The notes beneath the pieces are model-generated. The model saw only the letters and a list, made by a program, of their open reading frames with translations, did no database searches and was not told where the DNA came from. 14,577 nt of DNA from Chloroflexota bacterium. Its GTDB lineage: Bacteria > Chloroflexota > Limnocylindria > Limnocylindrales > CSP1-4. Where the stretch lies: contig JAKAHL010000019.1 of assembly GCA_021815005.1 (NCBI GenBank), positions 1-14,577 on the forward strand. Reading direction: 5' to 3'. Of the stretch, positions 2,639-14,552 are shown piece after piece (the first letter of the stretch is position 1; the number at the start of each line of letters is the position of its first letter). Both the position numbers and the translations under genes were made by a program.

Positions 2639-2812
2639 ATGGCCATCGCGAAGGACCCCGTCTGCGGCATGGACGTGGACACCGAGAAGTCCAAGCTCTC
2701 GCTCGAGCACGAGGGGCAGACCTACTGGTTCTGCGGCAAGGGCTGCCTGCTCGAGTTCAAGGACGACCCGGACAAGTACCTCGACCCGAACTACGTCCCC
2801 CAGGGGATGTGA
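2639..2812 (+). CDS. YHS-domain metal-binding protein
   Basis: A 57-residue protein that is almost entirely one YHS domain: DPVCGMDV (6-13), then Y-W-F-C-x-K-G-C (29-36), then F-x-x-D-P-x-K-Y-L (40-48). Cysteines 9, 32 and 36 are the expected metal ligands. YHS domains occur alone or fused to copper/heavy-metal P-type ATPases, and stand-alone ones are inferred to bind transition metals or act as small metal carriers; no ATPase is present in this window, so the metal and partner are unknown. The protein has no signal peptide and should be cytoplasmic. It is divergent from the TraR/DksA gene and is closed by a strong hairpin 22 nt after its stop, so it is probably monocistronic. Confidence 0.85.
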   Translation: MAIAKDPVCGMDVDTEKSKLSLEHEGQTYWFCGKGCLLEFKDDPDKYLDPNYVPQGM

Positions 2813-2868: not shown

Positions 2869-2962
2869 TCGTTGTCGGGCCGGTGCCCGGGGGCCGCGCG
2901 CGGCAGCCCGGACACCTCGGGCCGAGACGAACGGAGATAAGCGGGGGCTAAGTCGGGCCCGG

Positions 2963-2984
2963 TAGGCTCCGCGCTCCGTAGGCT
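2963..2984 (+). promoter_or_regulatory. duplicated TAGGCT -10-like hexamers upstream of microprotein 1
   Basis: TAGGCT occurs at 2963-2968 and again at 2979-2984, each within the shared string GTAGGCTC, 16 bp apart. Either fits the TANNNT pattern seen before other genes here and would start a leader of roughly 60-85 nt for the small gene at 3055. The surrounding 2869-3054 stretch holds no other gene that I can support. No -35 is evident. Confidence 0.35.
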
Positions 2985-3054: not shown

Positions 3055-3147
3055 ATGTGGCGTCGCGTTCGCCGGGCGGCCCTGGCGCTGTCACCCTGGG
3101 TCACGCTGGCCGTGCTCGTCGTGCCCCACGCGGCCAAGCGGTGGTAG
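3055..3147 (+). CDS. membrane microprotein 1 (30 residues, C-terminal PHAAKRW)
   Basis: A short ORF from ATG 3055 to TAG 3147 with an unusually good ribosome-binding site, GAGGAGG, 7 nt before the ATG. The peptide starts with a basic stretch (MWRRVRRAA), continues as one hydrophobic helix (about residues 9-24, LALSPWVTLAVLVV) and ends PHAAKRW. Charge layout suggests N-terminus inside. The C-terminus matches the microprotein at 8337-8435 (PQSAKRW), which is the main reason to believe it is real; no homologue is known to me and no function is assigned. It sits between the YHS terminator and a structured hairpin region upstream of ferredoxin, so it has its own transcription unit. It could be a component of a membrane complex or a membrane-active regulator; both are guesses. 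Confidence 0.6.
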   Translation: MWRRVRRAALALSPWVTLAVLVVPHAAKRW

Positions 3148-3166
3148 CCGTGGGCGCGGCCGATGT

Positions 3167-3220
3167 CCCGTCGGGCGGCGAGGCTGCCAGCCGGCGCTGG
3201 TAGGCGCGGCGCCCGACGGG
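3167..3220 (+). terminator. long stem-loop downstream of microprotein 1
   Basis: CCCGTCGGGCG (3167-3177) pairs perfectly with CGCCCGACGGG (3210-3220); the enclosed 32 nt contain a second small hairpin CCAGC/GCTGG (3188-3192 and 3196-3200). It begins 19 nt after the microprotein stop. There is no T tract, so it may be a factor-assisted terminator or an mRNA-stabilising structure. The rest of 3221-3409 contains no supported gene apart from the ferredoxin promoter. Confidence 0.5.
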
Positions 3221-3320
3221 CCCGCGCCGCTTGCTCGCGGACTCGCGGGCCGGCCCGCTCGTGTCGCGGCGCCGTGAACGCTGCGAGGGGTGTGCCGGGT
3301 CCGGACCAGCGCGTCCGCGG

Positions 3321-3350
3321 TTCTCCGCGCCCGGCCTCCGGTGGTACGCT
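3321..3350 (+). promoter_or_regulatory. possible ferredoxin promoter
   Basis: TACGCT (3345-3350) fits the TANNNT -10 pattern; TTCTCC (3321-3326) lies 18 bp upstream as a poor -35. A start near 3357 would give a leader of about 50 nt carrying the Shine-Dalgarno AGGAGA. Confidence 0.35.
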
Positions 3351-3409
3351 TCAGCTGTCTCGGCTCGTCCGATGAATTGGCCGCTTCTTCGCTCAGGAGA
3401 CAACCTGCG

Positions 3410-3697
3410 ATGGCGTATGTGATCGCCGAGCCCTGCGTCGACGTGATGGACACCGCATGCGTGTCGGTTTGCCCGGTGGACTGCATCCACCAGGAAGAGG
3501 GCAACGACCGGATGCTGTACATCGACCCGAACGAATGCATCGACTGCGGTGCCTGCGAGCCGGAGTGCCCGGTCAACGCCATCTTCCCCGAGGAAAGCCT
3601 CCCGGCGCAGTGGGCCGGCTACACGGCGATCAACGTGCAGTGGTACTCGGACAAGGCCGCGGCCCGCGCCGCCCTGGACGCGCTCAAGCCCCGCTGA
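3410..3697 (+). CDS. fdxA: 7Fe (3Fe-4S/4Fe-4S) bacterial-type ferredoxin
   Basis: A 95-residue soluble electron carrier. Cysteines are spaced as in seven-iron ferredoxins: C9-x7-C17-x3-C21-P, then C43-x2-C46-x2-C49-x3-C53-P. By analogy with the Azotobacter type, C9, C17 and C53 hold the 3Fe-4S cluster and C21, C43, C46 and C49 the 4Fe-4S cluster; C25 is an extra conserved cysteine (CPVDC). The replacement of the normal C-x2-C-x2-C first motif by C-x7-C rules out a plain 8Fe ferredoxin. The tail after residue 70 resembles the FdxA C-terminal extension. The start is set by AGGAGA 9 nt upstream. It has its own promoter and terminator. The 2-oxoacid:ferredoxin oxidoreductase at 11147-14047 is a plausible partner, but the genes are not in the same operon. 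Confidence 0.9.
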   Translation: MAYVIAEPCVDVMDTACVSVCPVDCIHQEEGNDRMLYIDPNECIDCGACEPECPVNAIFPEESLPAQWAGYTAINVQWYSDKAAARAALDALKPR

Positions 3698-3732
3698 TCG
3701 CGTCTGGTCGGCTCGCCGGCCCCCAACCCGTC

Positions 3733-3760
3733 ACGGCCCCGCCCCTCGAAGCGGGGCCGT
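3733..3760 (+). terminator. rho-independent terminator after ferredoxin
   Basis: ACGGCCCCGC (3733-3742) pairs with GCGGGGCCGT (3751-3760) around an 8-nt loop and runs into TTTCGATT. This is the most canonical terminator in the window. Confidence 0.85.
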
Positions 3761-3780
3761 TTCGATTCCCCGGCTCGCCG

Positions 3781-3824
3781 GTCGGCGTCCGCCCGGGGCC
3801 CGTCGGCGTCGCGCCGTCAGCGTC
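3781..3824. repeat. short GTCGGCGTC repeats before the cobalamin-binding-type gene
   Basis: GTCGGCGTC occurs at 3781-3789 and 3802-3810 (period 21) and once with a single change at 3816-3824 (GTCAGCGTC). They lie 50-95 bp upstream of the -10 hexamer and could be direct-repeat operator sites or simple sequence drift in GC-rich DNA. Confidence 0.3.
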
Positions 3825-3874
3825 GGGCGTCGGCCCGAGCGTCCCGCTCTGGCCCGGCCCGTGGACCTGGCCCG

Positions 3875-3880
3875 TAGACT
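3875..3880 (+). promoter_or_regulatory. -10 hexamer TAGACT, leaderless start of the cobalamin-binding-type gene
   Basis: TAGACT ends exactly 6 nt before the GTG at 3887. There is no Shine-Dalgarno and an in-frame TAG at 3875-3877 rules out a longer protein, so initiation at the very 5' end of the message is the simplest reading. Confidence 0.55.
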
Positions 3881-3886
3881 AGGCTC

Positions 3887-4774
3887 GTGCGCATCGTCTC
3901 GCTCCACCCCGCCGCCACCGAGATCGTGTTCGCGCTCGGGCTGGGCGACGAGCTCGTGGGCGTGACCGCCTACTGCGACGAGCCGCCGGAGGCTCGCCAG
4001 GTTCCGGTCGTCGCCCGTCTCTCCGGGGCCGCGCGAGCCGGGTTGCCGGGGCCCGGGCTGCTCGAGCTCGACCGCGAGGCCCTCGGGGCCGCGGACCCGG
4101 ACCTCGTCATCCTCTCCGACTCGAGCCGTGTCTGCGCGGTTGGCGCCCGCGAGATGCGGGCGATCGCCGACAGCATCGACGAGGAGATCGCGGTGCTCAC
4201 CCTTGACCCGGTCTCGGTGGAGGGCGCGCTCAACGCGATCCAGACCGTGGGCGCCATGACCGAGGCCGAGGACGAGGCGATGGACGTGGTGGCGGGGCTC
4301 CGCGAACGTCTCCAGGCGATCGAGGCCATCGTGGTCGCCCGCCGTGACCACGGCTTCAAGGCGCCGCGGGTCGCCGCGCTCGAGTGGCTGGACCCGCCCG
4401 TGTCGGTCGGCCGCTGGGTTCCCGAGCAGGTGCGCCTGGCGGGCGGCTGGGAGCTCCTCGGCCGCGAGGGGGAGCGGGGCGCGGCCACCTCGTGGGACGC
4501 GCTGCGCGAGGTTGACCCCGAGATCATCGTCCTGATGCCCGCGGGGATGGACCTCCCGACGACGCTCGCCGCCTGGGCCTCGACGCCGCGGCCGACGGGC
4601 TGGGACGACCTGGCGGCGGTTCGCGCCGGGCGGGTGTTCGCGGTGGACGGCTCAGCCTACTTCTGGCGGCCCGGGCCGCGCCTGGTGGACGGCATCGAGG
4701 TGCTCGCGGAGATCGTGGACCCGGTTGCGTTCGACGGGCTCGCGCCGAGCGACAGCTTCGCGCCGGTGGGCTGA
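3887..4774 (+). CDS. cobalamin-binding-type protein (BtuF/periplasmic-binding class III fold) without signal peptide
   Basis: A 295-residue protein of the helical-backbone substrate-binding family used for vitamin B12 and siderophores. The N-terminus RIVSLHPAATEIVFALGLGD (2-21) is the standard first strand and helix; VSVGRWVPEQVRLAGGWELL (172-191) opens the second lobe, and YFWRPGPRLVDGIEVLAEI (258-276) closes it. Unlike transported BtuF there is no signal peptide or lipobox, and an in-frame stop 12 nt before the GTG excludes an unseen one. Many bacteria carry such cytoplasmic-looking forms annotated as cobalamin-binding protein; their job is unproven. No BtuC/BtuD permease or ATPase genes are in the window. 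It is followed 81 nt later by proC in the same direction, but proC has its own promoter. The fold is secure, the ligand inferred. Confidence 0.8.
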   Translation: MRIVSLHPAATEIVFALGLGDELVGVTAYCDEPPEARQVPVVARLSGAARAGLPGPGLLELDREALGAADPDLVILSDSSRVCAVGAREMRAIADSIDEEIAVLTLDPVSVEGALNAIQTVGAMTEAEDEAMDVVAGLRERLQAIEAIVVARRDHGFKAPRVAALEWLDPPVSVGRWVPEQVRLAGGWELLGREGERGAATSWDALREVDPEIIVLMPAGMDLPTTLAAWASTPRPTGWDDLAAVRAGRVFAVDGSAYFWRPGPRLVDGIEVLAEIVDPVAFDGLAPSDSFAPVG

Positions 4775-4780
4775 GATCCC

Positions 4781-4806
4781 GCGGCTCGGCTGACGCGTCA
4801 CGCCGC
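4781..4806. promoter_or_regulatory. inverted repeat upstream of proC
   Basis: A perfect 10-bp palindrome TGACGCGTCA (4791-4800) sits inside a further inverted pair GCGGC (4781-4785) and GCCGC (4802-4806). It lies 7 nt after the stop of the cobalamin-binding-type gene and about 40 bp upstream of the proC -10. It could be an operator for proC or a weak terminator of the previous gene; no T tract follows, which favours an operator. Confidence 0.35.
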
Positions 4807-4841
4807 TCGACCGGCCCGGCGGGGGCCCGCGTGCGCGGTGG

Positions 4842-4847
4842 TATCCT
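4842..4847 (+). promoter_or_regulatory. -10 hexamer TATCCT, leaderless start of proC
   Basis: TATCCT is followed by eight bases and then the ATG at 4856, with no Shine-Dalgarno. This also argues against the upstream in-frame GTG at 4838, which lies before the hexamer. Confidence 0.55.
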
Positions 4848-4855
4848 CCGGCGCG

Positions 4856-5722
4856 ATGTCCCCCCTCGCGAATCGCACCGTCGCGACTGTCGGCTCCGGA
4901 GTCATGGCCGAGGCGATGATCGTCGGGCTGCTCCACGACCAGCTCGTCGAGCCTGGCCAGATCGTGGCGAGCCATCCCCGGGCCGAGCGGCGCGCCGCGC
5001 TCGCGGCGACGCACGGCATCCGAACGGTCGCGTCGAACGTCGAGGCGGTCAACGGCGCCGACGTGATCATCCTCGCGGTCAAGCCGCAGATGCTCGCGAA
5101 GGTGGGCCGCGAGATCGGGCCGCACCTCCACGAGGGGCAGGTCGTCCTCTCGGTCCTGGCCGGGCCCACGTCGGCCGCGCTGGTGTCGGCGCTGGGCCAC
5201 GACCACGTCGTCCGGGCCATGCCCAACACGCCCGCCCGCATCGGGGCCGGCATGACGGTCTGGTACGCCACGCCCGCCACCACCGAGGAGCAGCGCGCCC
5301 AGGCGAAGGCGCTCCTGTCCGCGCTGGGCGCCGAGCTCGAGGTGGAGGACGAGAAGTGGGTCGCCATGGCGACCGCCGTCTCCGGCACCGGCCCGGCCTA
5401 CGTGTTCCTCGTCATGGAGGCGCTCATCGACGCGGCCGTGCACCTGGGCTTCCCGCGCCACATCGCGCACGACCTGGTCATCGAGACGCTGGAGGGCTCC
5501 ACGCGCTTCGCGAAGCAGTCCGGCGACCACCCGGCCGTGCTGCGCAACATGGTGACCTCCCCGGGCGGCACCTCAGCGGCCGCGCTCCATGAGCTCGAGT
5601 CGGGCCGTCTGCGCACCGTCCTCTCGGAGGCCGTGTGGGCCGCGTTCCGGCGCACCGTGGAGCTGGGCGACCAGCTCGAGGCGCAGCTGGGCGCCAACGA
5701 GGTGAAGCCGGGGCGCGGCTAG
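4856..5722 (+). CDS. proC: pyrroline-5-carboxylate reductase
   Basis: Last step of proline synthesis: NAD(P)H-dependent reduction of pyrroline-5-carboxylate to proline in the cytoplasm. The 288-residue protein shows the Rossmann dinucleotide loop VGSGVMAEAM (12-21), AVKPQ (75-79), MPNTP (122-126), then the all-helical dimer domain with SGTGPAY (176-182) and the family signature ending VTSPGGTS (233-240), which binds substrate. Length is slightly above the usual 260-280. The ATG at 4856 is preferred over GTG 4838 because it lies 8 nt after a TATCCT hexamer and directly precedes the conserved N-terminus. Its TAG overlaps the TAG of the opposing gene within CTAG at 5719-5722. Proline dehydrogenase, the opposing catabolic enzyme, lies about 1.2 kb downstream. 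Confidence 0.93.
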   Translation: MSPLANRTVATVGSGVMAEAMIVGLLHDQLVEPGQIVASHPRAERRAALAATHGIRTVASNVEAVNGADVIILAVKPQMLAKVGREIGPHLHEGQVVLSVLAGPTSAALVSALGHDHVVRAMPNTPARIGAGMTVWYATPATTEEQRAQAKALLSALGAELEVEDEKWVAMATAVSGTGPAYVFLVMEALIDAAVHLGFPRHIAHDLVIETLEGSTRFAKQSGDHPAVLRNMVTSPGGTSAAALHELESGRLRTVLSEAVWAAFRRTVELGDQLEAQLGANEVKPGRG

Positions 5723-6168
5723 GCCTTCGCGGCCAGCGCCGCCTCGAGCGTCGCGATCTTGTCGAGCAGCGTGTTCAGCGCGGCGTCCTGCGCCTTGAGG
5801 TGCTCCTGGATCTGGCGAGCCTCGTGGAAGGTGGCGTCGGCGTCCTTGTAGGTCATGTCGGCCCGCTTGTCCGACGCCTTGCCCAGGATGTTCTGCCCGA
5901 CCATGATCACCGACAGCATGACCAGCTGGATGAACGTCTGGCTCACCCACTGGATCAGCGGCAGCAGGCCGCCGCCGATCGCGTCCGGCAGCACGATCAG
6001 GGCCAGGATCGCGAACGCGTAGGCGCACCACATGGTGCCCACGGCGGTCGTCAGGGCCAGCGCGATCTTCCCGTTGACGCCGACGTGCTCGTCGACGATC
6101 TTCGGCGGCCCGGCCGCCTTGCGGCTCTCGATGCGGGGGTGGGGGACGTGCTCGAACGCAATGGTCAT
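5719..6168 (-). CDS. small two-helix membrane protein with C-terminal coiled coil (DUF1003-like)
   Basis: A 149-residue protein: a short soluble N-terminus with HPHPRIESR-type residues (7-16 region), two predicted membrane helices (about 38-62 and 70-92), then a charged helical tail (98-149, LGKASDKRADMTYKDAD... and repeated A/L heptads) likely to form a coiled coil in the cytoplasm. The helix-GQN-coiled-coil layout resembles DUF1003 proteins, whose function is unknown; I would not insist on the family. The ATG at 6168 has GGGGAG upstream with a 6-nt spacer and is preceded by a TAGATT hexamer at 6234-6239; a longer reading to 6306 would overlap the divergent gene's promoter and start. It is convergent with proC, sharing a CTAG stop palindrome. 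Confidence 0.7.
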   Translation of the reverse strand: MTIAFEHVPHPRIESRKAAGPPKIVDEHVGVNGKIALALTTAVGTMWCAYAFAILALIVLPDAIGGGLLPLIQWVSQTFIQLVMLSVIMVGQNILGKASDKRADMTYKDADATFHEARQIQEHLKAQDAALNTLLDKIATLEAALAAKA

Positions 6169-6233
6169 CGGGGTCTCCCCGCCGGTCTGGCCGGCGCATC
6201 CACATCGCGGCCCAGGGGGACCGCACGGCTCGG

Positions 6234-6239
6234 AATCTA
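6234..6239 (-). promoter_or_regulatory. -10 hexamer TAGATT for the two-helix membrane gene
   Basis: TAGATT on the minus strand fits TANNNT and would give a leader of about 60 nt, in agreement with the Shine-Dalgarno GGGGAG before ATG 6168. It is 27 bp from the opposing -10 at 6267-6272, so the two promoters are back to back. Confidence 0.45.
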
Positions 6240-6266
6240 GCCGCCCGAGCGCAGTCCCGCCCGGAC

Positions 6267-6272
6267 TATGCT
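6267..6272 (+). promoter_or_regulatory. -10 hexamer TATGCT, leaderless start of the four-helix membrane gene
   Basis: TATGCT is followed by eight bases and then ATG 6281. No Shine-Dalgarno is present. No convincing -35 upstream. Confidence 0.5.
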
Positions 6273-6280
6273 TCGGACCG

Positions 6281-6928
6281 ATGGCCACTCCCCCCTCCGC
6301 CGCCACCCAACTGTCCGAGGCCGACGAGCTGCGCGTCCTCGAGGACCAGCTGGCGCGGATGCGGGGGATGCTCTTCGGCTACTCCGAGCGCTTCTTCGAG
6401 CGGATCCGGACGTACCTCCTGCTCACGCTCGCCCTGCTCGTGCTGGCGGGCTCGGGCGTGTTCCGCGGCGCGGTGGTCGCCGTGCCGTTCCTGATCCCGT
6501 TCGCCTTCCTCGAGACGGGCTACCTGTTCTTCTACACGGTGTTCGCGCGCCGCCACGCGGAGTACCTGGAGCGCGAGATCAACGGCCGGCTGGGTCGCGA
6601 CGTGCTCGTCGCGCACCGGCTCGAGGCCGCCTATCTCTACCCGCCCGACGCGCCCAAGGTGGCCGGCATCTCCGCGGGCAACCCGGCCGGCATGATGAGC
6701 GCGGTCACGATCGGGTACACCGTCGGCGCCGCGCTCCTCTGGCTGGCGGGCATGCGCGGCCTGCTCGACATGGAGCAGAGCGCGCTGCTCGTCGCGGCCG
6801 CGCTGGCCTGGACCGCCGCGATCGCGCTCTATCTCGTGGTCACCTTCGTCACCCGCCACGACGAGCGGCGCCTGATCGCGGCGCTCGACGCCGCCTACGG
6901 CCCGATGCACGGCTCTTCCCCCCGCTGA
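6281..6928 (+). CDS. four-helix integral membrane protein, function unknown
   Basis: A 215-residue protein I do not recognise. The N-terminal 42 residues are soluble and charged with a helical stretch (EADELRVLEDQLARMRGMLF). Predicted membrane helices are about 44-60, 64-88, 137-158 and 167-190. A central soluble loop (89-136) contains the charged helix RRHAEYLEREINGRLGRD and the segment HRLEAAYLYPPDAPKVAG. The C-terminus (191-215) is short and cytoplasmic-looking. The ATG is chosen because a TATGCT hexamer ends 8 nt before it. The gene is followed by proline dehydrogenase with a 14-nt gap in the same direction, so the two are very probably co-transcribed; a link to proline uptake or to membrane attachment of the dehydrogenase is only a guess, and it does not look like a known proline transporter. 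Confidence 0.65.
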   Translation: MATPPSAATQLSEADELRVLEDQLARMRGMLFGYSERFFERIRTYLLLTLALLVLAGSGVFRGAVVAVPFLIPFAFLETGYLFFYTVFARRHAEYLEREINGRLGRDVLVAHRLEAAYLYPPDAPKVAGISAGNPAGMMSAVTIGYTVGAALLWLAGMRGLLDMEQSALLVAAALAWTAAIALYLVVTFVTRHDERRLIAALDAAYGPMHGSSPR

Positions 6929-6942
6929 TCCCGAGGTCCTCG

Positions 6943-7929
6943 ATGCCCGACCGAACCGCCGTCAACGACCTCGCCGAGCGCGCGATGCGCTCGACGCTCC
7001 TCTCGCTCTCGCACCGCCGGGCGCTGGGGCAGCTGGCCACCCGGGTCCCGGTCACCCGCCCCATGGTCCGGCGCTTCATCTCCGGCGAGACGCTCGACGA
7101 GGCGCTGCCCGCGATCCGCCGGCTGCACGACGCGGGCATGGGCACGACGGTGGACGTCCTGGGCGAATCGGTGACCGCGGAGGCGGACGCACGCGCGGCG
7201 GCCGACCGCTACCTGGGCCTGCTCGATGCGCTCGCCGGCACCGACCTCGACCGCAACGTGTCGCTCAAGCCCAGTCAGATGGGCCTCGGCATCTCGCCCG
7301 CCCTTGCCCGCGAGAACGTGGGACGCATCGCCGCCAGGGCCGTGGAGACGGGGGCGTTCGTCAGGATCGACATGGAGGATCACACCACCACCGACGCCAC
7401 GCTCGAGCTGTGGCGGGCGGTTCGCCCCGCGGGCGAGCACCAGCCCGGCGCCGGCGGCCGTGACGTCGGCGTCGTCATCCAGGCCGCCCTGCGGCGCAGC
7501 GACCGCGACGTGGACGCGATGATCGAGGCCGGCGGCCGCGTCCGGCTGTGCAAGGGCGCCTACAAGGAGCCGCATGACGTCGCCTACGCCGACAAGGCCG
7601 AGGTGGACGAGGCCTACGAGCGGCTGATGCTGCGGCTCATGCGCCGCGGCAACTACCCGGGGATCGCCACCCACGACGTGCGCCTGATCAGGCGGGCGAT
7701 CGAGGTGGCCAAGGCCGAGGGCATCGCGCGCGACGCGTTCGAGTTCCAGATGCTCTACGGCATCCGGCGCGACCTGCAGGAGCAACTCGCGGGCGCCGGC
7801 TGGCGGGTCCGCGTCTACGTGCCGTTCGGCGCGCAGTGGTACCCGTACTTCATGCGCCGCCTGGCCGAGCGACCGGCGAACGTCACGTTCCTGATGCGCA
7901 ACATGTGGCGCGACCGCGGGGCGGGCTGA
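6943..7929 (+). CDS. proline dehydrogenase (monofunctional, FAD-dependent)
   Basis: First step of proline catabolism: FAD-dependent oxidation of proline to pyrroline-5-carboxylate, with electrons passed to the membrane quinone pool. The 328-residue beta/alpha barrel shows NVSLKPSQMGL (105-115), FVRIDMEDH (139-147), RLCKGAYKEP (201-210), ATHD (242-245), EFQMLYGI (267-274) and the long signature YVPFGAQWYPYFMRRLAER (292-310), whose paired arginines bind the proline carboxylate. Length fits single-domain bacterial PRODH; the P5C dehydrogenase half is not fused and not in this window. GAGG 6 nt before the ATG supports the start. It is the second gene after the four-helix membrane protein. A GC hairpin overlaps its stop codon. 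Confidence 0.93.
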   Translation: MPDRTAVNDLAERAMRSTLLSLSHRRALGQLATRVPVTRPMVRRFISGETLDEALPAIRRLHDAGMGTTVDVLGESVTAEADARAAADRYLGLLDALAGTDLDRNVSLKPSQMGLGISPALARENVGRIAARAVETGAFVRIDMEDHTTTDATLELWRAVRPAGEHQPGAGGRDVGVVIQAALRRSDRDVDAMIEAGGRVRLCKGAYKEPHDVAYADKAEVDEAYERLMLRLMRRGNYPGIATHDVRLIRRAIEVAKAEGIARDAFEFQMLYGIRRDLQEQLAGAGWRVRVYVPFGAQWYPYFMRRLAERPANVTFLMRNMWRDRGAG

Positions 7930-7942
7930 GCGTCCCGCCGCC
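7918..7942 (+). terminator. GC hairpin across the proline dehydrogenase stop
   Basis: GGGGCGGG (7918-7925) can pair with CCCGCC-G-CCC (7934-7942) with one bulged G around an 8-nt loop containing the TGA. No T tract follows, only a C-rich run (7943-7975), which could also serve as a Rho-type signal. Weak call. Confidence 0.3.
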
Positions 7943-7983
7943 CCGTCCGCGCCGTCGCCGCCCCCGCGCCGCCTCGGGCTCGC

Positions 7984-8133
7984 CGGTCATTTCGGGACGC
8001 AACGGTCGCGTGGGCGATCTGTACGGGCCGCATCGAGGCGGGCCCGTTGTGCCGGGAGCCGAGTGACGCGACAGCCGGACCCCGAAGTGGCGGAGACGGC
8101 CCGTCGCGCAGCCGTCGCGTCCCGAAATGGCCG
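7984..8133. ncRNA. candidate structured RNA bounded by a 23-bp inverted repeat
   Basis: The 407-bp stretch 7930-8336 has no gene I can support. Within it, arms 7984-8006 and 8111-8133 are complementary over 23 positions: 20 Watson-Crick pairs, two G-U wobbles if transcribed from the plus strand, and one A-C mismatch; the common core is CATTTCGGGACGC. A further CGCG/CGCG pairing (8007-8010 with 8105-8108) extends the stem past a 2-nt bulge. Inside, ACGGGCC (8023-8029) can pair with GGCCCGT at 8041-8047 (local hairpin) or with the same heptamer at 8098-8104 (long-range), so two folds are possible. Just outside is a 14-bp palindrome GCGGCGCGCGCCGC (8138-8151). It does not show the conserved motifs of RNase P RNA, tmRNA or SRP RNA. 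Strand and expression are unknown. Confidence 0.45.
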
Positions 8134-8233
8134 AAGAGCGGCGCGCGCCGCGGACCCTGGCGCGCTTCGGGCTCTCGTGAGTGGCGCGGCTGCTAGGGGC
8201 GGACCCGGGGGCCGGGAGACTCGGCCCGGAATC

Positions 8234-8272
8234 GAAGAGCCGCCGGAAGGAGGTTCTCCGGCGGCCCTCTTC
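8234..8272 (-). terminator. hairpin terminator downstream of microprotein 2
   Basis: GAAGAG-CCGCCGGA (8234-8247) pairs with TCCGGCGG-(CC)-CTCTTC (8257-8272) with a 2-nt bulge and a 9-nt loop. On the minus strand it follows the microprotein stop at 8337 by about 65 nt and ends CTCTTCGATT, a modest T-rich run. It could also end the plus-strand transcript of the preceding region. Confidence 0.55.
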
Positions 8273-8336
8273 GTGCGGCGGGCAATCGCCGCGTCATACA
8301 GCACCCGGTGTGGTGGACCTGATCACCAGCGGCGGC

Positions 8337-8435
8337 TCACCAGCGCTTCGCCGACTGGGGGAAGATCATGAGCAGGGCGGCAATGCTCCCCAGGAACATC
8401 GACGCCCGGAAGGCGTACCACTTCGCGGTCTTCAT
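8337..8435 (-). CDS. membrane microprotein 2 (32 residues, C-terminal PQSAKRW)
   Basis: A short ORF from ATG (8435) to TGA (8337-8339) with AAGGA 7 nt before the start. The peptide has a basic, aromatic N-terminus (MKTAKWYAFR), one hydrophobic helix (about residues 12-25, SMFLGSIAALLMIF) and ends PQSAKRW, matching the end of the microprotein at 3055-3147 (PHAAKRW) at the same distance from the C-terminus. The two are otherwise divergent, so the shared tail is likely to be the functional part. It has its own leader with a hairpin and a hairpin terminator, so it is a stand-alone unit. An enclosing 927-codon open frame on this strand is antisense to later genes and is not a gene; only this last segment has a ribosome-binding site and sensible composition. 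Function unknown. Confidence 0.65.
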   Translation of the reverse strand: MKTAKWYAFRASMFLGSIAALLMIFPQSAKRW

Positions 8436-8484: not shown

Positions 8485-8534
8485 CCGAGGCCGTGAACGT
8501 AGTCCGGCGGGCCGGGCACACGGAATAGCCCGTA

Positions 8535-8546
8535 GGTACTGGTACC
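8535..8546. promoter_or_regulatory. GGTAC-TG-GTACC inverted repeat between microprotein 2 and the aldolase
   Basis: Two perfect 5-bp half sites with a 2-bp spacer, in the divergent gap 8436-8687. Could be an operator for the microprotein unit, whose promoter should lie close by; I could not place a confident -10 for that gene. The rest of the gap (8547-8675) shows only GC-rich sequence. Confidence 0.25.
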
Positions 8547-8675
8547 CGGTCGCCGAAAGGCACAGGTGCGGGTGCGCACCACCCGCGCCCCTGCCGCCGA
8601 CGCCCGACCCCGCCCGCGACGCCGCCCGCGCCGCTGAAACGCCGATCTCCGGGCCCGCGGACCGCGTGGCTGCGG

Positions 8676-10500: not shown

Positions 10501-10582
10501 CCGGCGCGGGCCCGTGTTGCCCGGGGCAGGCCGCCCGTTGTTGTCCGGCGCGGGCCCGTGTTGCCCGGGGCAGGCCGCCCGT
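10501..10582. repeat. tandem duplication, 44-bp period
   Basis: A perfect 38-bp segment at 10501-10538 recurs at 10545-10582, separated by TGTTGT, giving a 44-bp period. Each unit splits loosely into two related halves of about 22 bp that both contain GCCCGT followed by a GTTG-rich string. It fills most of the 163-bp gap between the divergent EamA and CBS genes and lies between their two -10 hexamers. It does not encode protein on sensible grounds. Confidence 0.85.
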
Positions 10583-10637: not shown

Positions 10638-11150
10638 GTGGCAAACCTCAACGAGCGCGCCGTCCTGGCGCGCGTCCCATCCCTCGCTTCGCAACCCCTC
10701 ATGGTGGTTGGGCGACGGCAGCCGGTGGCCATGCCCCCGGGCACCTCGCTCGGCGAATGCCTGCGGGCCATCCAGCAGCTGGGCACCGGCGATTCCGTGT
10801 TCATCACGGACGCCGACGGTCGGCTGGTGGGCGTGCTCACGGAGCGCGACATCTTCGGTCGCCTGGTTGGCCCGGACGTGGCGTCCGGGGTGGACCTCGA
10901 CGCACCCGTCGAGGGCTACATGACCACCGACCCGCACACCCTGCGGCTCTCCCAGACCGTGCGCGACGCGCTCGCGCTCATGCAGTCGAGCCGCTACCGC
11001 AACGTCCCGGTCGTCGATGACGACCGCAAGCTGGTGGGCGTGGTGCGCCAGGTGGACCTCCTCAAGTTCCTGGCTGAGGAGTTCCCCGAGGAGCTGCTGA
11101 ACCTTCCCCCCAGACCGCATCAGCGCATGGAGCAGGCCGAAGGCGGATGA
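10638..11150 (+). CDS. CBS-pair protein, first gene of the kor operon
   Basis: A 170-residue protein made of two CBS domains: repeat 1 about 25-78 (VFITDADGRLVGVLTERDIF) and repeat 2 about 88-148 (YMTTDPHTLRLSQTV...NVPVVDDDRKLVGVVRQVDLL). CBS pairs bind adenosine nucleotides; the T-x-x-D ribose-phosphate motif is kept in repeat 1 (T68-E-R-D71) while repeat 2 has R137-x-x-D140. An N-terminal 20 residues and a C-terminal acidic/proline tail (149-170) are outside the domains. It contains no enzyme domain, so it probably works by binding a partner. Its TGA overlaps the korA ATG as ATGA, so it is translationally coupled to KorA, which makes KorAB the obvious candidate partner. The GTG is set by the adjacent -10; longer readings run through the tandem repeat. 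Confidence 0.85.
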   Translation: MANLNERAVLARVPSLASQPLMVVGRRQPVAMPPGTSLGECLRAIQQLGTGDSVFITDADGRLVGVLTERDIFGRLVGPDVASGVDLDAPVEGYMTTDPHTLRLSQTVRDALALMQSSRYRNVPVVDDDRKLVGVVRQVDLLKFLAEEFPEELLNLPPRPHQRMEQAEGG

Positions 11151-13009
11151 CTAGCACAGCTCAGGGCCCCGAGCACGACGTTCGGGAGCTCGATCGGGTC
11201 ACGATCCGGTTCGCCGGCGACAGCGGCGACGGCATGCAGCTGACCGGGACGCAGTTCACCCGGACGGCAGCCGTCTTCGGCAACGACATCTCCACCTTCC
11301 CGGACTACCCGGCCGAGATTCGCGCCCCCGCGGGCTCGCTGCCCGGCGTCTCGGGCTTCCAGATCAGCTTCTCGGCGTCGGACATCCACACCCCGGGTGA
11401 TGCGCCGGACGTGCTGGTCGCGATGAACCCGGCAGCGCTCAAGACCAACGTCGTGGACGTCCCGCCCGGCGGCGCCGTCATCGTCAACAGCGACGCGTTC
11501 ACGGCCGGCAACCTGTCCAAGGCGGCCTACGCGTCGAACCCGCTCACCGACGGGTCGCTCAAGCAGTACAAGGTCTTCCAGGTGCCGATCAGCACCCTCA
11601 ACGCCGCGGCGCTCGAGGGGCTGGACATGACCAGCAAGCAGGCCGACCTGACGAAGAACTTCTTCGCGCTGGGCATGATGTTCTGGCTCTACGAACGGTC
11701 CATGGAGCCCACGCTCAAGTGGATCGACCAGAAGTTCGGGGGCCGGCCGGTCATCGCCGAGGCCAACCGCCGCGCGCTGCGCGCCGGCTACGCCTTCGGC
11801 GACACGACCGAGATGTTCCACGAGACCTATCGGGTCCCGAAGGCGAAGCTGCCGCCCGGCACCTACCGGAACATCACCGGCAACGAGGCCACCGCGCTCG
11901 GGTTCCTGGCGGCGGCCCAGGCCGCCAAGCGGCCGCTGTTCTACGGCTCCTACCCGATCACGCCGGCCTCGGACATCCTCCACCAGCTGTCCGCCTTCAA
12001 GAGCTTCGGCGTCAAGAGCTTCCAGGCCGAGGACGAGATCGCGGCCATGGGCGCCACCATCGGCGCGGCCTACGGAGGCTCGCTGGCGCTGACCGGCACC
12101 TCCGGCCCGGGCCTCGCGCTCAAGACCGAGGCGATGGGCCTCGCGGTCATGACCGAGCTGCCCGTCGTCATCGTCAACGTCCAGCGCGCCGGCCCGTCCA
12201 CCGGCCTGCCCACCAAGGTGGAGCAGGCGGACCTGTTCCAGGCGGTCTTCGGGCGGAACGGCGAGGCGCCGATCCCGGTGGTCGCTCCGGCCACGCCCGC
12301 CGAGTGCTTCTCGATGGCGATCGAGGCCTCGCGCATCGCGCTCAAGTACATGACCCCGGTCATCTACCTGTCCGACGCGTTCGTGGGCAACGGCGCGGAG
12401 CCGTGGCGAGTCCCGTCCCCGGAAGAGCTGCCGGACATCTCCGTCCCCGCCGCGGTCAAGGGCGACGGGCGATTCCTGCCCTACGGGCGCGACCCCGAGA
12501 CGCTGTCGCGGCCGTGGGCCGTGCCGGGCACGCCTGGCCTCGAGCACCGCATCGGCGGCCTGGAGAAGCTCGACGGCCTGGGCACCGTGAGCTACGACGC
12601 GGACAACCACCACCGGATGGTGCAACTGCGCCATGACAAGGTGGCGGGCATCGCCAAGGACATCCCCGACCTCGAGGTGTTCGGCCCCGACCACGGTGAC
12701 CTGCTCATCCTCGGCTGGGGCTCCACCTACGGCGCCCTTCGCAGCGCCGTCGAGCGCCTGACCGGCGAGGGCAAGTCCGTCGCCCACGCGCACCTGCGGC
12801 ACCTGTTCCCGTTCCCGAAGAACACGGGCGACGTGCTGCGCAGCTACAAGACCGTGCTGGTCCCCGAGCTCAACCTCGGCCAGCTGTGGTTCCTGATCCG
12901 CGGCACGTACCTCGTGGACGCGCTCGCCTACGGGCGCGTGCGCGGCAAGCCGTTCCGGATCTCGGAGATCGTCGACGAGGCCAACCGGATCCTCGCCGAG
13001 CGGAGCTGA
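11147..13009 (+). CDS. korA: 2-oxoacid:ferredoxin oxidoreductase, fused gamma-alpha subunit
   Basis: A 620-residue subunit of a ferredoxin-dependent 2-oxoacid oxidoreductase, which decarboxylates 2-oxoglutarate or a related 2-oxoacid to the acyl-CoA and reduces ferredoxin, or runs in reverse. The N-terminal gamma domain (about 15-205) starts VTIRFAGDSGDGMQLTGTQF; the alpha domain (about 245-560) carries YPITPASDIL (269-278), the ligand loop AEDEIAAMGA and QRAGPSTGLPTK (346-357). This fused gamma-alpha form with a two-subunit partner is the KorA type known from Mycobacterium (Rv2455c) and others, which favours 2-oxoglutarate, but the sequence does not prove substrate. No ferredoxin domain is fused, so an external ferredoxin is needed. 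It overlaps the CBS gene by 4 nt and precedes korB by 3 nt. Confidence 0.93.
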   Translation: MTSTAQGPEHDVRELDRVTIRFAGDSGDGMQLTGTQFTRTAAVFGNDISTFPDYPAEIRAPAGSLPGVSGFQISFSASDIHTPGDAPDVLVAMNPAALKTNVVDVPPGGAVIVNSDAFTAGNLSKAAYASNPLTDGSLKQYKVFQVPISTLNAAALEGLDMTSKQADLTKNFFALGMMFWLYERSMEPTLKWIDQKFGGRPVIAEANRRALRAGYAFGDTTEMFHETYRVPKAKLPPGTYRNITGNEATALGFLAAAQAAKRPLFYGSYPITPASDILHQLSAFKSFGVKSFQAEDEIAAMGATIGAAYGGSLALTGTSGPGLALKTEAMGLAVMTELPVVIVNVQRAGPSTGLPTKVEQADLFQAVFGRNGEAPIPVVAPATPAECFSMAIEASRIALKYMTPVIYLSDAFVGNGAEPWRVPSPEELPDISVPAAVKGDGRFLPYGRDPETLSRPWAVPGTPGLEHRIGGLEKLDGLGTVSYDADNHHRMVQLRHDKVAGIAKDIPDLEVFGPDHGDLLILGWGSTYGALRSAVERLTGEGKSVAHAHLRHLFPFPKNTGDVLRSYKTVLVPELNLGQLWFLIRGTYLVDALAYGRVRGKPFRISEIVDEANRILAERS

Positions 13010-13012
13010 CCG

Positions 13013-14047
13013 ATGACCGACATGCTGACTCCCCCCGAGGCCATCAAGCTCACGCGCAAGGACTTTGTCGCGGAGCAGGAGGTCCGGTGGTGCCCCGGCT
13101 GCGGGGACTACTCCATCCTGGCCCAGACCCAGAAGGTCATGCCCGACTTCGGCGTGCCGAAGGAGAACATCGTCTTCATCAGCGGGATCGGGTGCTCCGG
13201 CCGGCTGCCGTACTACATGAACACGTACGGCTTCCACTCGATCCACGGCCGCGCGCCGACGCTCGCGACCGGCCTCAAGATCGCCCGGCCCGAGCTCATG
13301 ATCTGGGTCGCCACCGGCGACGGCGACGCGCTCTCCATCGGCGGCAACCACTTCCTGCACTCGATGCGCCGGAACGTGGACTTCACGATGGTGATGCACA
13401 ACAACCGCATCTACGGCCTCACCAAGGGCCAGACGTCGCCCACCTCGGAGTTCGGCAAGCGGACGAAGTCCACGCCGATGGGCTCCGTGGACAGGCCCGT
13501 GATGCCCCTGACCCTCGCGCTCGCCGCCGAGGCGACCTTCGTGGCCCGGACCGTGGACACCCACACCGAGCACATGCAGCAGACCCTCGAGGCCGCCGGC
13601 CGCCATCGCGGCGCCTCGTTCGTCGAGGTCCTGCAGAACTGCAACATCTTCAACGACGGCGCCTGGCGCGAGTTCACCGAGCGCGACGTCCGCGACGACC
13701 GCATGCTCGTGCTCGAGCACGGCAAGCCGCTCATCTTCGGGAAGAGCCGCGACAAGGGCATCCGCCTGCGCGGCCTCCACCCCGAGGTGGTGACCATCGG
13801 CGAGAACGGCGTGACCGAGGCGGACCTGCTGGTCCACGACCAGCACGCCGAGGATCCGTACCTCGCCCTGATCCTGTCGCGCATGTTCTGGCCGGAGTTC
13901 CCCGTGCCGGTGGGGATCCTGCGCGAGGTGGATCGGCCGACATACTCGGACCTGATGGACGCGCAGATCGAGCAGGCGATCGCCAAGTCGGGCCCCGGAG
14001 ACCTCGCCAAGGCCCTCATGGCCGGCGAGACGTGGACGGTGGAGTGA
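13013..14047 (+). CDS. korB: 2-oxoacid:ferredoxin oxidoreductase, beta (TPP) subunit
   Basis: A 344-residue catalytic partner of KorA holding thiamine diphosphate and one 4Fe-4S cluster. Candidate cluster ligands are C27 and C30 (WCPGCGDY), C61 (GIGCSGR) and C210 (LQNCNIFND). The TPP/Mg motif runs GDGDALSIGGNHFLHSMRRN (102-121) to HNNRIYGLTKGQTSPTS (129-145). The C-terminal part (225-344) carries the usual 2-oxoglutarate-type extension with RDVRDDRMLVLEHGKPLIFG. Length is typical. It starts 3 nt after korA, with GGAG about 8 nt upstream, and is followed after 4 nt by the zinc-ribbon/CBS gene, so the four genes should be one transcript. Confidence 0.93.
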   Translation: MTDMLTPPEAIKLTRKDFVAEQEVRWCPGCGDYSILAQTQKVMPDFGVPKENIVFISGIGCSGRLPYYMNTYGFHSIHGRAPTLATGLKIARPELMIWVATGDGDALSIGGNHFLHSMRRNVDFTMVMHNNRIYGLTKGQTSPTSEFGKRTKSTPMGSVDRPVMPLTLALAAEATFVARTVDTHTEHMQQTLEAAGRHRGASFVEVLQNCNIFNDGAWREFTERDVRDDRMLVLEHGKPLIFGKSRDKGIRLRGLHPEVVTIGENGVTEADLLVHDQHAEDPYLALILSRMFWPEFPVPVGILREVDRPTYSDLMDAQIEQAIAKSGPGDLAKALMAGETWTVE

Positions 14048-14051
14048 CCTG

Positions 14052-14552
14052 ATGCTGTGCCCCGTCTGCCACTACGACAACTTCGAGGGCGAGGACACCT
14101 GCGCCAACTGCGGCGCGGACCTCGCGAACGCGGACACGCCGCAGCCCGCGCTCGACTACCGCGACACCGTGCTGGGCGAGCACCTCGTTCGGCTCGGCGT
14201 GGGCAATCCGGTCATGGTGGACCCGGGACTCGCGGTCGCGGACGCGATCCGGCAGATGCACGCCTCGGGGGGCGACTGCCTGCTGGTGGTCGAGGACGGC
14301 AAGCTGATCGGCATCTTCACGGACCGTGACGCGGTGGTGAAGGCGGCCGACAAGCGGCTCCAGCTGTACAAGGTCAGGGACTTCATGACGCCGGACCCCG
14401 TGGTCCTGCGCCATGACGACACGCTTGCCGTGGCGATCCACAAGATGGCCATCGGCGAGTTCCGGCACATCCCGATCGTCAGGGACGGACGCCCTATCGG
14501 CGTCGTGTCGGCGGCGGACGTGTTCCGGCACCTGGCCCTGGCGCTCGGGTGA
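14052..14552 (+). CDS. zinc-ribbon/CBS-pair fusion protein, last gene of the kor operon
   Basis: A 166-residue protein with an N-terminal treble/zinc ribbon, C3-x2-C6 ... C17-x2-C20 (MLCPVCHYDNFEGEDTCANCGADL), joined by a short linker (25-48) to two CBS domains: about 50-105 (DCLLVVEDGKLIGIFTDRDAVV) and 110-162 (FMTPDPVVL...HIPIVRDGRPIGVVSAADVF). Both repeats keep the T/S-x-x-D adenylate-ribose motif (T90-D-R-D93 and S153-A-A-D156), so it is the better candidate of the two CBS proteins for nucleotide binding. The zinc ribbon could bind protein or nucleic acid. Start ATG follows GGAG with a 9-nt spacer. Gene order suggests it works on KorAB, as sensor, assembly factor or regulator; this is inference from context. 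Confidence 0.88.
   Translation: MLCPVCHYDNFEGEDTCANCGADLANADTPQPALDYRDTVLGEHLVRLGVGNPVMVDPGLAVADAIRQMHASGGDCLLVVEDGKLIGIFTDRDAVVKAADKRLQLYKVRDFMTPDPVVLRHDDTLAVAIHKMAIGEFRHIPIVRDGRPIGVVSAADVFRHLALALG

Follow-up and report, generated by a model that had tools for sequence, protein, structure and literature searches.

Why would two unlinked genes of one bacterium, each encoding a protein of about 30 residues, end in the same few amino acids? The question is raised by a window of 14,577 bases (the whole stretch of DNA analysed here), which is one contig, JAKAHL010000019.1, of the 2.05 Mb draft genome of a Chloroflexota bacterium (G000 below; 72% complete). An earlier note on this DNA had drawn attention to two short open reading frames (ORFs), at 3055-3147 on the forward strand and at 8337-8435 on the reverse strand, as an undescribed family of small membrane proteins with the common end P-x-x-A-K-R-W. 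Both ORFs read as it described, with purine-rich sites upstream that we read from the sequence as GAGGAGG for the first and AAGGAC for the second. The first encodes the microprotein P1 (30 aa, ending HAAKRW; MWRRVRRAALALSPWVTLAVLVVPHAAKRW) and the second the microprotein P2 (32 aa, ending QSAKRW; MKTAKWYAFRASMFLGSIAALLMIFPQSAKRW). The bodies of P1 and P2 are dissimilar, and the residues before KRW mostly match between them within each genome, a pattern that we take to reflect, at about even strength of belief, a partner that binds both tails.

The tails of P1 and P2 change in step

The shared end exceeds what chance would supply, as the earlier note had argued. On both strands of the window, [KR]RW followed by a stop codon occurs at four sites versus 0.17 expected under a first-order Markov model, and none of 300 simulations from this model yielded at least four. 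All four sites belong to the P1 and P2 loci, namely P1, P2, and two coupled peptides, P3 and P4, described below. The AKRW-stop coding sequence GCNAARCGNTGGTRR has three matches in the draft genome, the third of which continues with TGG and has no stop. The P-x-x part of the proposed motif is not general.

In both proteins KRW is preceded by SG in genomes G003 and G005, by TA in G004, by GGA in G010, by DSA in G007, G008, and G009, by DGA in G001, and by AG in G014. A comparison of positions -5 and -4 of P1 with those of P2 across 11 genomes found 21 of 22 residues equal versus a permutation mean of 10.5, and 1 of 100,000 permutations did as well, in a test that ignores relatedness. With one genome per clade, 13 of 14 residues agree and 4 of 5040 permutations are as good, the clades having been set by eye with no tree and the tails entered by hand. 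A twelfth genome, G011, was examined after the test: its P2 ends VADRSIRW and its P1 ends VVDRSIRW. Its P1 has the same genes upstream as the other P1 loci as well as the P1 upstream element, and its 15.4 kb locus holds four sites at which a short ORF ends in x-R-W (plus up to three residues), P2 and P1 included.

Could the agreement be a product of copying between the two genes? Where the same tail residues are encoded, the two genes use different codons in 11 of 12 genomes, with one to four differences in each. These synonymous differences mean that recent copying alone does not explain the agreement, and gene conversion as its sole cause is thus disfavoured.

Each of the two genes is followed by a coupled ORF with a similar end. 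P3 (3141-3203, forward strand) is a tiny ORF lacking a hydrophobic helix and ending GGEAASRRW; it begins either at GTG 3141, overlapping the end of P1, or at GTG 3150, and its stop is at 3203. P4 (8323-8340, reverse strand) is a five-codon ORF, VSRRW, whose GTG overlaps the P2 stop codon (GTGA), and among the genus genomes looked at it was found only in G000, G003, G004, and G005. An ORF that begins at the P1 stop or overlaps it, and that has [SG]RRW at its end, is present at 11 of 13 P1 loci, counting G006, where the motif lies three residues before the end; at the other two, G014 has GRRLS and G011 has no coupled ORF. The serine of these P3-type ORFs is encoded by AGC, AGT, TCG, TCC, or TCA and the arginines by CGG, CGC, or CGT, and this use of several codons argues for selection on the peptide. 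In three genomes the tail unit is in tandem, with SRRW occurring two or three times at the P3-type end (G007, HSRRWRSRRWRSRRW; G008, HSRRWHSRRWRSRRW; G009, HSRRWRSRRW). The coupled ORFs and the co-varying residues before KRW had both escaped the earlier note.

Conservation and flanking elements of the two genes

P1 and P2 appear to be real genes, conserved in the window's genus. With the single P2 sequence as query, homologues were found in 10 of the 12 genomes of this genus, the source included, and G006 brings this to 11 of 12, with an E value of 0.03 and the same position beyond a proline dehydrogenase gene. P2 was not found in G002, whose contig stops about 2.6 kb past the ferredoxin gene. 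P1 is present in all 12 genus genomes and also in G014, which belongs to another genus.

A profile of P2-type proteins (A4, 30 rows) had matches at E 0.001 in 44 of the class's 177 genomes, and 42 of the 44 are in the window's taxonomic family. Of these 44 genomes, 26 supplied rows of the profile and 18 did not; P2 itself and G006 are among the rows, and the G006 score is therefore one by construction. A looser search, with E up to 0.05, held doubtful matches inside long frames, and counts were taken from the A4 search. The sole invariant residues of the profile are the tail R and W, and P2 matches the profile with this invariant R-W near its end. At E 0.001 the profile did not find P1, no P1 locus being among the matches listed; the lone P1 match in the looser search is the G003 tail, at E 0.018. 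P1 has the tail and size of P2 and is not filed as a member of the P2-type family.

The pooled ratio of nonsynonymous to synonymous change in P2 is 0.42 within the genus (3 pairs) and 0.18 among relatives of other genera (6 pairs), and 0 of 2000 shuffles were as low in either case. For P1 the ratio is 0.69 (3 pairs), with 136 of 2000 shuffles as low. The P2 type thus seems to be under strong coding constraint, of which P1 gives no more than a suggestion. In a scan of ten microproteins, with P3 and P4 outside it, nothing in Pfam or NCBIfam scored above its cut-off. The proposal of an undescribed family therefore stands for P2, with its frame, start, stop, and RW end kept and no model to describe it. 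As for P1 and P2 together as one family, the shared, co-varying tail supports it and the profiles do not, and a common ancestry of the two bodies likewise lacks profile support.

A membrane location is predicted for both proteins. A single-sequence model gives P2 a single helix at residues 4-30, and among 30 P2-type members the N-terminal flank is more positive than the C-terminal flank in 27 and equal to it in 3, which by the positive-inside rule would place the tail outward.

The two genes were also said to have separate leaders and following hairpins, and both descriptions are borne out. The upstream regions are each kept within the genus and are unlike one another. An alignment of 12 P1 upstream regions yields a conserved element at 2936-2970 (forward strand), in which a direct repeat, GATAAG ... 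CTAAGT, is followed by TAGGCT, and an alignment of 10 P2 upstream regions yields another at 8521-8547 (reverse strand), GGGTACCAGTACCTACGGGCTATTCCG / GGTACCAGTACNNACGGGC. The P1 element would be a candidate promoter and the P2 element a candidate promoter or operator; perhaps both are regulated promoters. Downstream of P2, a terminator-like hairpin at 8233-8273 (reverse strand) has a folding z of -2.47, with 3 of 200 shuffles as stable. The hairpin that follows P1 lies at the end of the coupled P3 and beyond (3167-3220, forward strand), with a z of -1.83 and 9 of 200 shuffles as stable. Inverted repeats were seen by eye, with no folding, 3' of many P2 relatives. The loop of the P2 hairpin holds ACCTCC, which resembles an anti-Shine-Dalgarno sequence, and by eye the same is found in G003, G004, and G005; the hairpin is possibly a dual-function RNA.

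In the genus, P1 and P3 lie near a gene for a YHS-domain protein and P2 lies beyond proline dehydrogenase, and both stand alone. The YHS protein, of 57 aa, is encoded 5' of P1 at 2639-2812 (forward strand; PF04945, E 2.5e-16). By eye, about 7 of 12 P1 loci have a YHS gene on the 5' side, with DksA/TraR-like and dehydratase-like genes farther out. On the 3' side of P1 and P3 there is a ferredoxin gene in G000, G002, and G004 and a convergent transporter permease gene (PF00528) in G001, G010, and G011. P2 ends at its hairpin, with a convergent proline dehydrogenase gene beyond, and this place is kept in G000, G004, and G006. Elsewhere in the window, a near-tandem duplicate of the GC-rich unit CCGGCGCGGGCCCGTGTTGCCCGGGGCAGGCCGCCCGT was noticed by eye between two genes at 10501-10582. 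It is followed at 10638-14552 (forward strand) by genes in the same direction for a CBS-domain protein, two long proteins, and a second CBS-domain protein; by eye, the two long genes resemble subunits of 2-oxoacid:ferredoxin oxidoreductase.

P2-type relatives and DUF5317 gene clusters

Outside the genus, P2-type proteins usually end [EM]AG[RKQH]RW. Some of their genes form tandem arrays with those of a second type, whose end is GAG[IMT]RW, and in G061 five genes lie within 1.3 kb; a profile built from the second type picks up members of the first as well. Where the genes come as a tandem pair, the residue preceding R-W is I, M, T, or W in one type and mostly R, K, or H in the other.

In many genomes of other genera, the P2-type relatives adjoin a gene for a DUF5317 protein (PF17248) and genes with GGDEF, EAL, or HD domains, which points to enzymes of cyclic diguanosine monophosphate (c-di-GMP) signalling. 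Of 16 hand-picked sensor-like neighbours scanned, 14 have GGDEF (12 of them also EAL) and 3 have HD (one with GGDEF). An RW-ended hydrophobic small ORF lies within 1.4 kb downstream at 26 of 80 DUF5317 loci; in other phyla an RW-ended microprotein is often farther upstream in the DUF5317 cluster, and similar GAxx[KR]W microproteins are found at their DUF5317 loci. In Kineosporia (L254 and L262), which has the cluster, the microproteins end GASDKWG or GASYKWT. When small hydrophobic ORFs preceded by a ribosome-binding site were collected, [KR]W fell within the last five residues of 27 of 36 at 50 Limnocylindria-like DUF5317 loci and of 22 of 35 at 30 other DUF5317 loci, whose titles include Actinomycetota, Kineosporia, Acidobacteriota, Bipolaricaulota, and Chloroflexales, versus 0 of 11 at control loci of the same phylum. 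In both sets of the 80 loci the count was made with the motif already noticed there, and the Limnocylindria-like part, sorted by hand, includes family-bearing genomes. No such small ORF was found at 20 LspA loci.

The DUF5317 clusters are akin to the present case in harbouring P2-type relatives in other genera, and DUF5317 loci of other phyla do so in harbouring similar microproteins. In contrast, P1 and P2 stand alone in the window's genus, where no cluster of DUF5317 with GGDEF, EAL, or HD genes was found around them.

The DUF5317 protein itself has an invariant aspartate in each of two motifs, LTDxFA and an FSxGD-type motif, together with a conserved NGGxMP stretch (locus L186, 6888-7439; locus L178, 6398-6991). 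The spacing of the two invariant aspartates near its end is about as in the protease LspA, and one of five DUF5317 copies scanned gave a weak match to Peptidase_A8 (E 0.0015, below the cut-off). Among the matches listed by Foldseek for a DUF5317 model there was no LspA, and hhalign gave DUF5317 versus LspA a probability of 1.5%. An LspA-like protease activity of DUF5317 is thus hinted at by the aspartate pair and the weak Pfam match, with neither fold nor profile in its favour. Of 21 relatives, 20 possess LspA itself.

In the limited literature collection searched, where absence is not absence in print, we found no paper naming DUF5317, none on such microproteins in Chloroflexi or Limnocylindr or tied to diguanylate cyclases, and none that by its title concerns TM0504, a Thermotoga peptide tied to GGDEF genes.

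Candidate explanations for the shared tail

A tail that a pair of membrane proteins has in common with a coupled peptide, that is in tandem in some genomes, and that changes in step is in our view best explained by one binding partner. We propose, with about as much confidence as reserve, that P1 and P2 are one-helix membrane microproteins whose tails are bound by a shared, co-evolving partner and that they have a role in c-di-GMP-linked signalling. Each protein would be inserted with its N-terminus inside and its C-terminus outside, and the tail, [S/G/A/T]-[A/G]-[K/R]-R-W or S-I-R-W, would be displayed outside the membrane. Specificity would reside in the tail and not in the helix, and a single partner reading it would cause the tails of P1, P2, and the coupled P3 to change together; P3 may be the same ligand in soluble form. 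The microproteins would act as ligands or regulatory subunits in membrane c-di-GMP signalling, and the neighbourhood of the relatives, with DUF5317 and GGDEF, EAL, or HD genes, points to membrane-bound c-di-GMP enzymes as the output. Topology, partner, output, and the soluble role of P3 are what we infer from these patterns.

Several observations weigh against this proposal. The 11-genome permutation test does not allow for relatedness, the constraint on P1 is weak, and the tail codons of P1 and P2 are identical in G006 and differ at only one position each in G003 and G004, such that older gene conversion may add to the agreement in some genomes. The tails of tandem pairs do not always match. 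DUF5317 loci added later bear the motif out less well than the first count did: at 40 further loci, hand-picked in other classes of the same phylum once the motif was known, [KR]W was found in 7 of 37 ORFs (6 loci, one of them the same record as L253) versus 0 of 11, a difference short of significance (Fisher 0.14). A looser motif, GAxx..W, is present at 19 of the 40 loci versus 0 of 20 controls (Fisher 6e-5), having been chosen post hoc and its 19 cases read by eye; three control ORFs end near a W without the motif. By these criteria a microprotein is absent from many DUF5317 loci, and several loci lack a sensor neighbour. Within the genus, 6 of 12 genomes gave no match to PF17248, among them G000 (72% complete) and G004 (91% complete), both of which carry P1 and P2, and in five of the remaining six DUF5317 occurs solely as a longer frame with no microprotein in its flanks (up to 1.5 kb). 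As P1 and P2 are present where no DUF5317 was found, DUF5317 is not the sole partner and is not needed for P1 and P2.

What else could account for such tails? The Phr precursors of Bacillus, which with the streptococcal SHP peptides belong to the RRNPP pheromones, are short ORFs with a basic N-terminus, a hydrophobic core, and the information in the last few residues, and RRNPP pheromone genes adjoin the gene of the cognate RRNPP regulator. No RRNPP regulator was found beside P1 or P2 among nine neighbours and the YHS gene scanned, whose domains, if any, are of other kinds, nor at 12 P1 loci inspected mostly by eye. Streptococcal SHP/Rgg is described as a short-peptide pheromone system (for example, PMC3150281). 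P1 and P2 resemble SHP/Rgg and Phr in being short ORFs with a basic N-terminus, a hydrophobic core, and informative last residues, and differ from them in their near-invariant R-W, in the coupled ORF that repeats the tail, and in having relatives tied to DUF5317 and c-di-GMP enzymes. If P1 and P2 were pheromone precursors, the helix would be a signal sequence, a membrane protease, DUF5317 or LspA, would free the tail [GAS]-x-R-W(x) as the signal, and P3 with its tandem SRRW would be a multi-copy precursor. A short tail that varies among lineages yet is common within a genome fits this, as do the repeats in a coupled ORF lacking a helix, the tandem microprotein genes (five in G061), the aspartate pair of DUF5317 with its weak Peptidase_A8 match, and the near-ubiquity of LspA in the relatives. 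However, the Foldseek and hhalign results do not support DUF5317 as the protease, an R-W that is nearly invariant at great distances is unusual in a specificity peptide, and a receptor was not recognised adjoining P1 or P2; we consider precursors of this kind unlikely. They could instead be structural subunits of a non-signalling membrane complex, the Arg-Trp end anchoring the helix at the lipid surface, which would suit the single helix, the basic ends, the interfacial tryptophan, and the position that P2 keeps beyond proline dehydrogenase in G000, G004, and G006. CydX, the small subunit of cytochrome bd, is encoded next to cydAB, and like it P1 and P2 are of about 30 aa, have one helix, and are easily missed by annotation; unlike it they have no common fixed partner gene, and the tails of two unlinked genes co-vary. 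A structural role leaves unexplained both the repeated SRRW of P3 and the co-varying residues before R-W, and the window neighbours scanned include no respiratory complex and no cytochrome bd domain, and thus it seems to us decidedly unlikely.

Two further readings have less in their favour. Type I toxins such as Ldr and TisB are small and have a hydrophobic helix, and the size and single helix of P1 and P2, their short separate units, and the tandem copies in some genomes are reminiscent of them; however, the P2 type is conserved across a taxonomic family under purifying selection, its tail is constrained, and no antisense RNA was identified, no Rfam family reaching its threshold in a scan limited to the window, which together make a toxin-like function very improbable. 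Least probable of all would be leader peptides, in which stalling of the ribosome at R-W-stop regulates a downstream gene. The hairpin overlapping P3 and the ferredoxin gene 3' of it in G000, G002, and G004 would agree with this, but the genes 3' of P1 vary, with the convergent permease in their place in G001, G010, and G011, and P2 ends at a hairpin before a convergent gene. Because the genes downstream of P1 differ between genomes, P1 as a leader of the ferredoxin gene was rejected.

Returning to the shared partner, that the tail serves as a displayed or subunit-like ligand seems to us neither likelier right than wrong nor the reverse, and that it is released as a pheromone, improbable. Small membrane proteins and peptide ligands are already known as kinds; what is new is an unnamed microprotein family and, from its relatives, its link to DUF5317 and c-di-GMP. 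In a wider and more doubtful version, P1, P2, and P3 would belong to a widespread undescribed micropeptide system in which a C-terminal [GAS]-x-R-W tag is the signal. A shared receptor would read several peptides per genome, tag and receptor would co-evolve, some genomes would carry multi-copy tag peptides, and in Chloroflexota, Actinomycetota, and other phyla the output would be c-di-GMP enzymes bound to the membrane.

Proteins of 30 residues are often missed by gene finders, and unlinked genes whose tails change in step are a directly testable sign of a common partner. Should the tail prove to be a recognition tag, it would offer a handle on how the adjacent GGDEF-EAL enzymes are controlled and on what DUF5317 does in phyla that resist cultivation.

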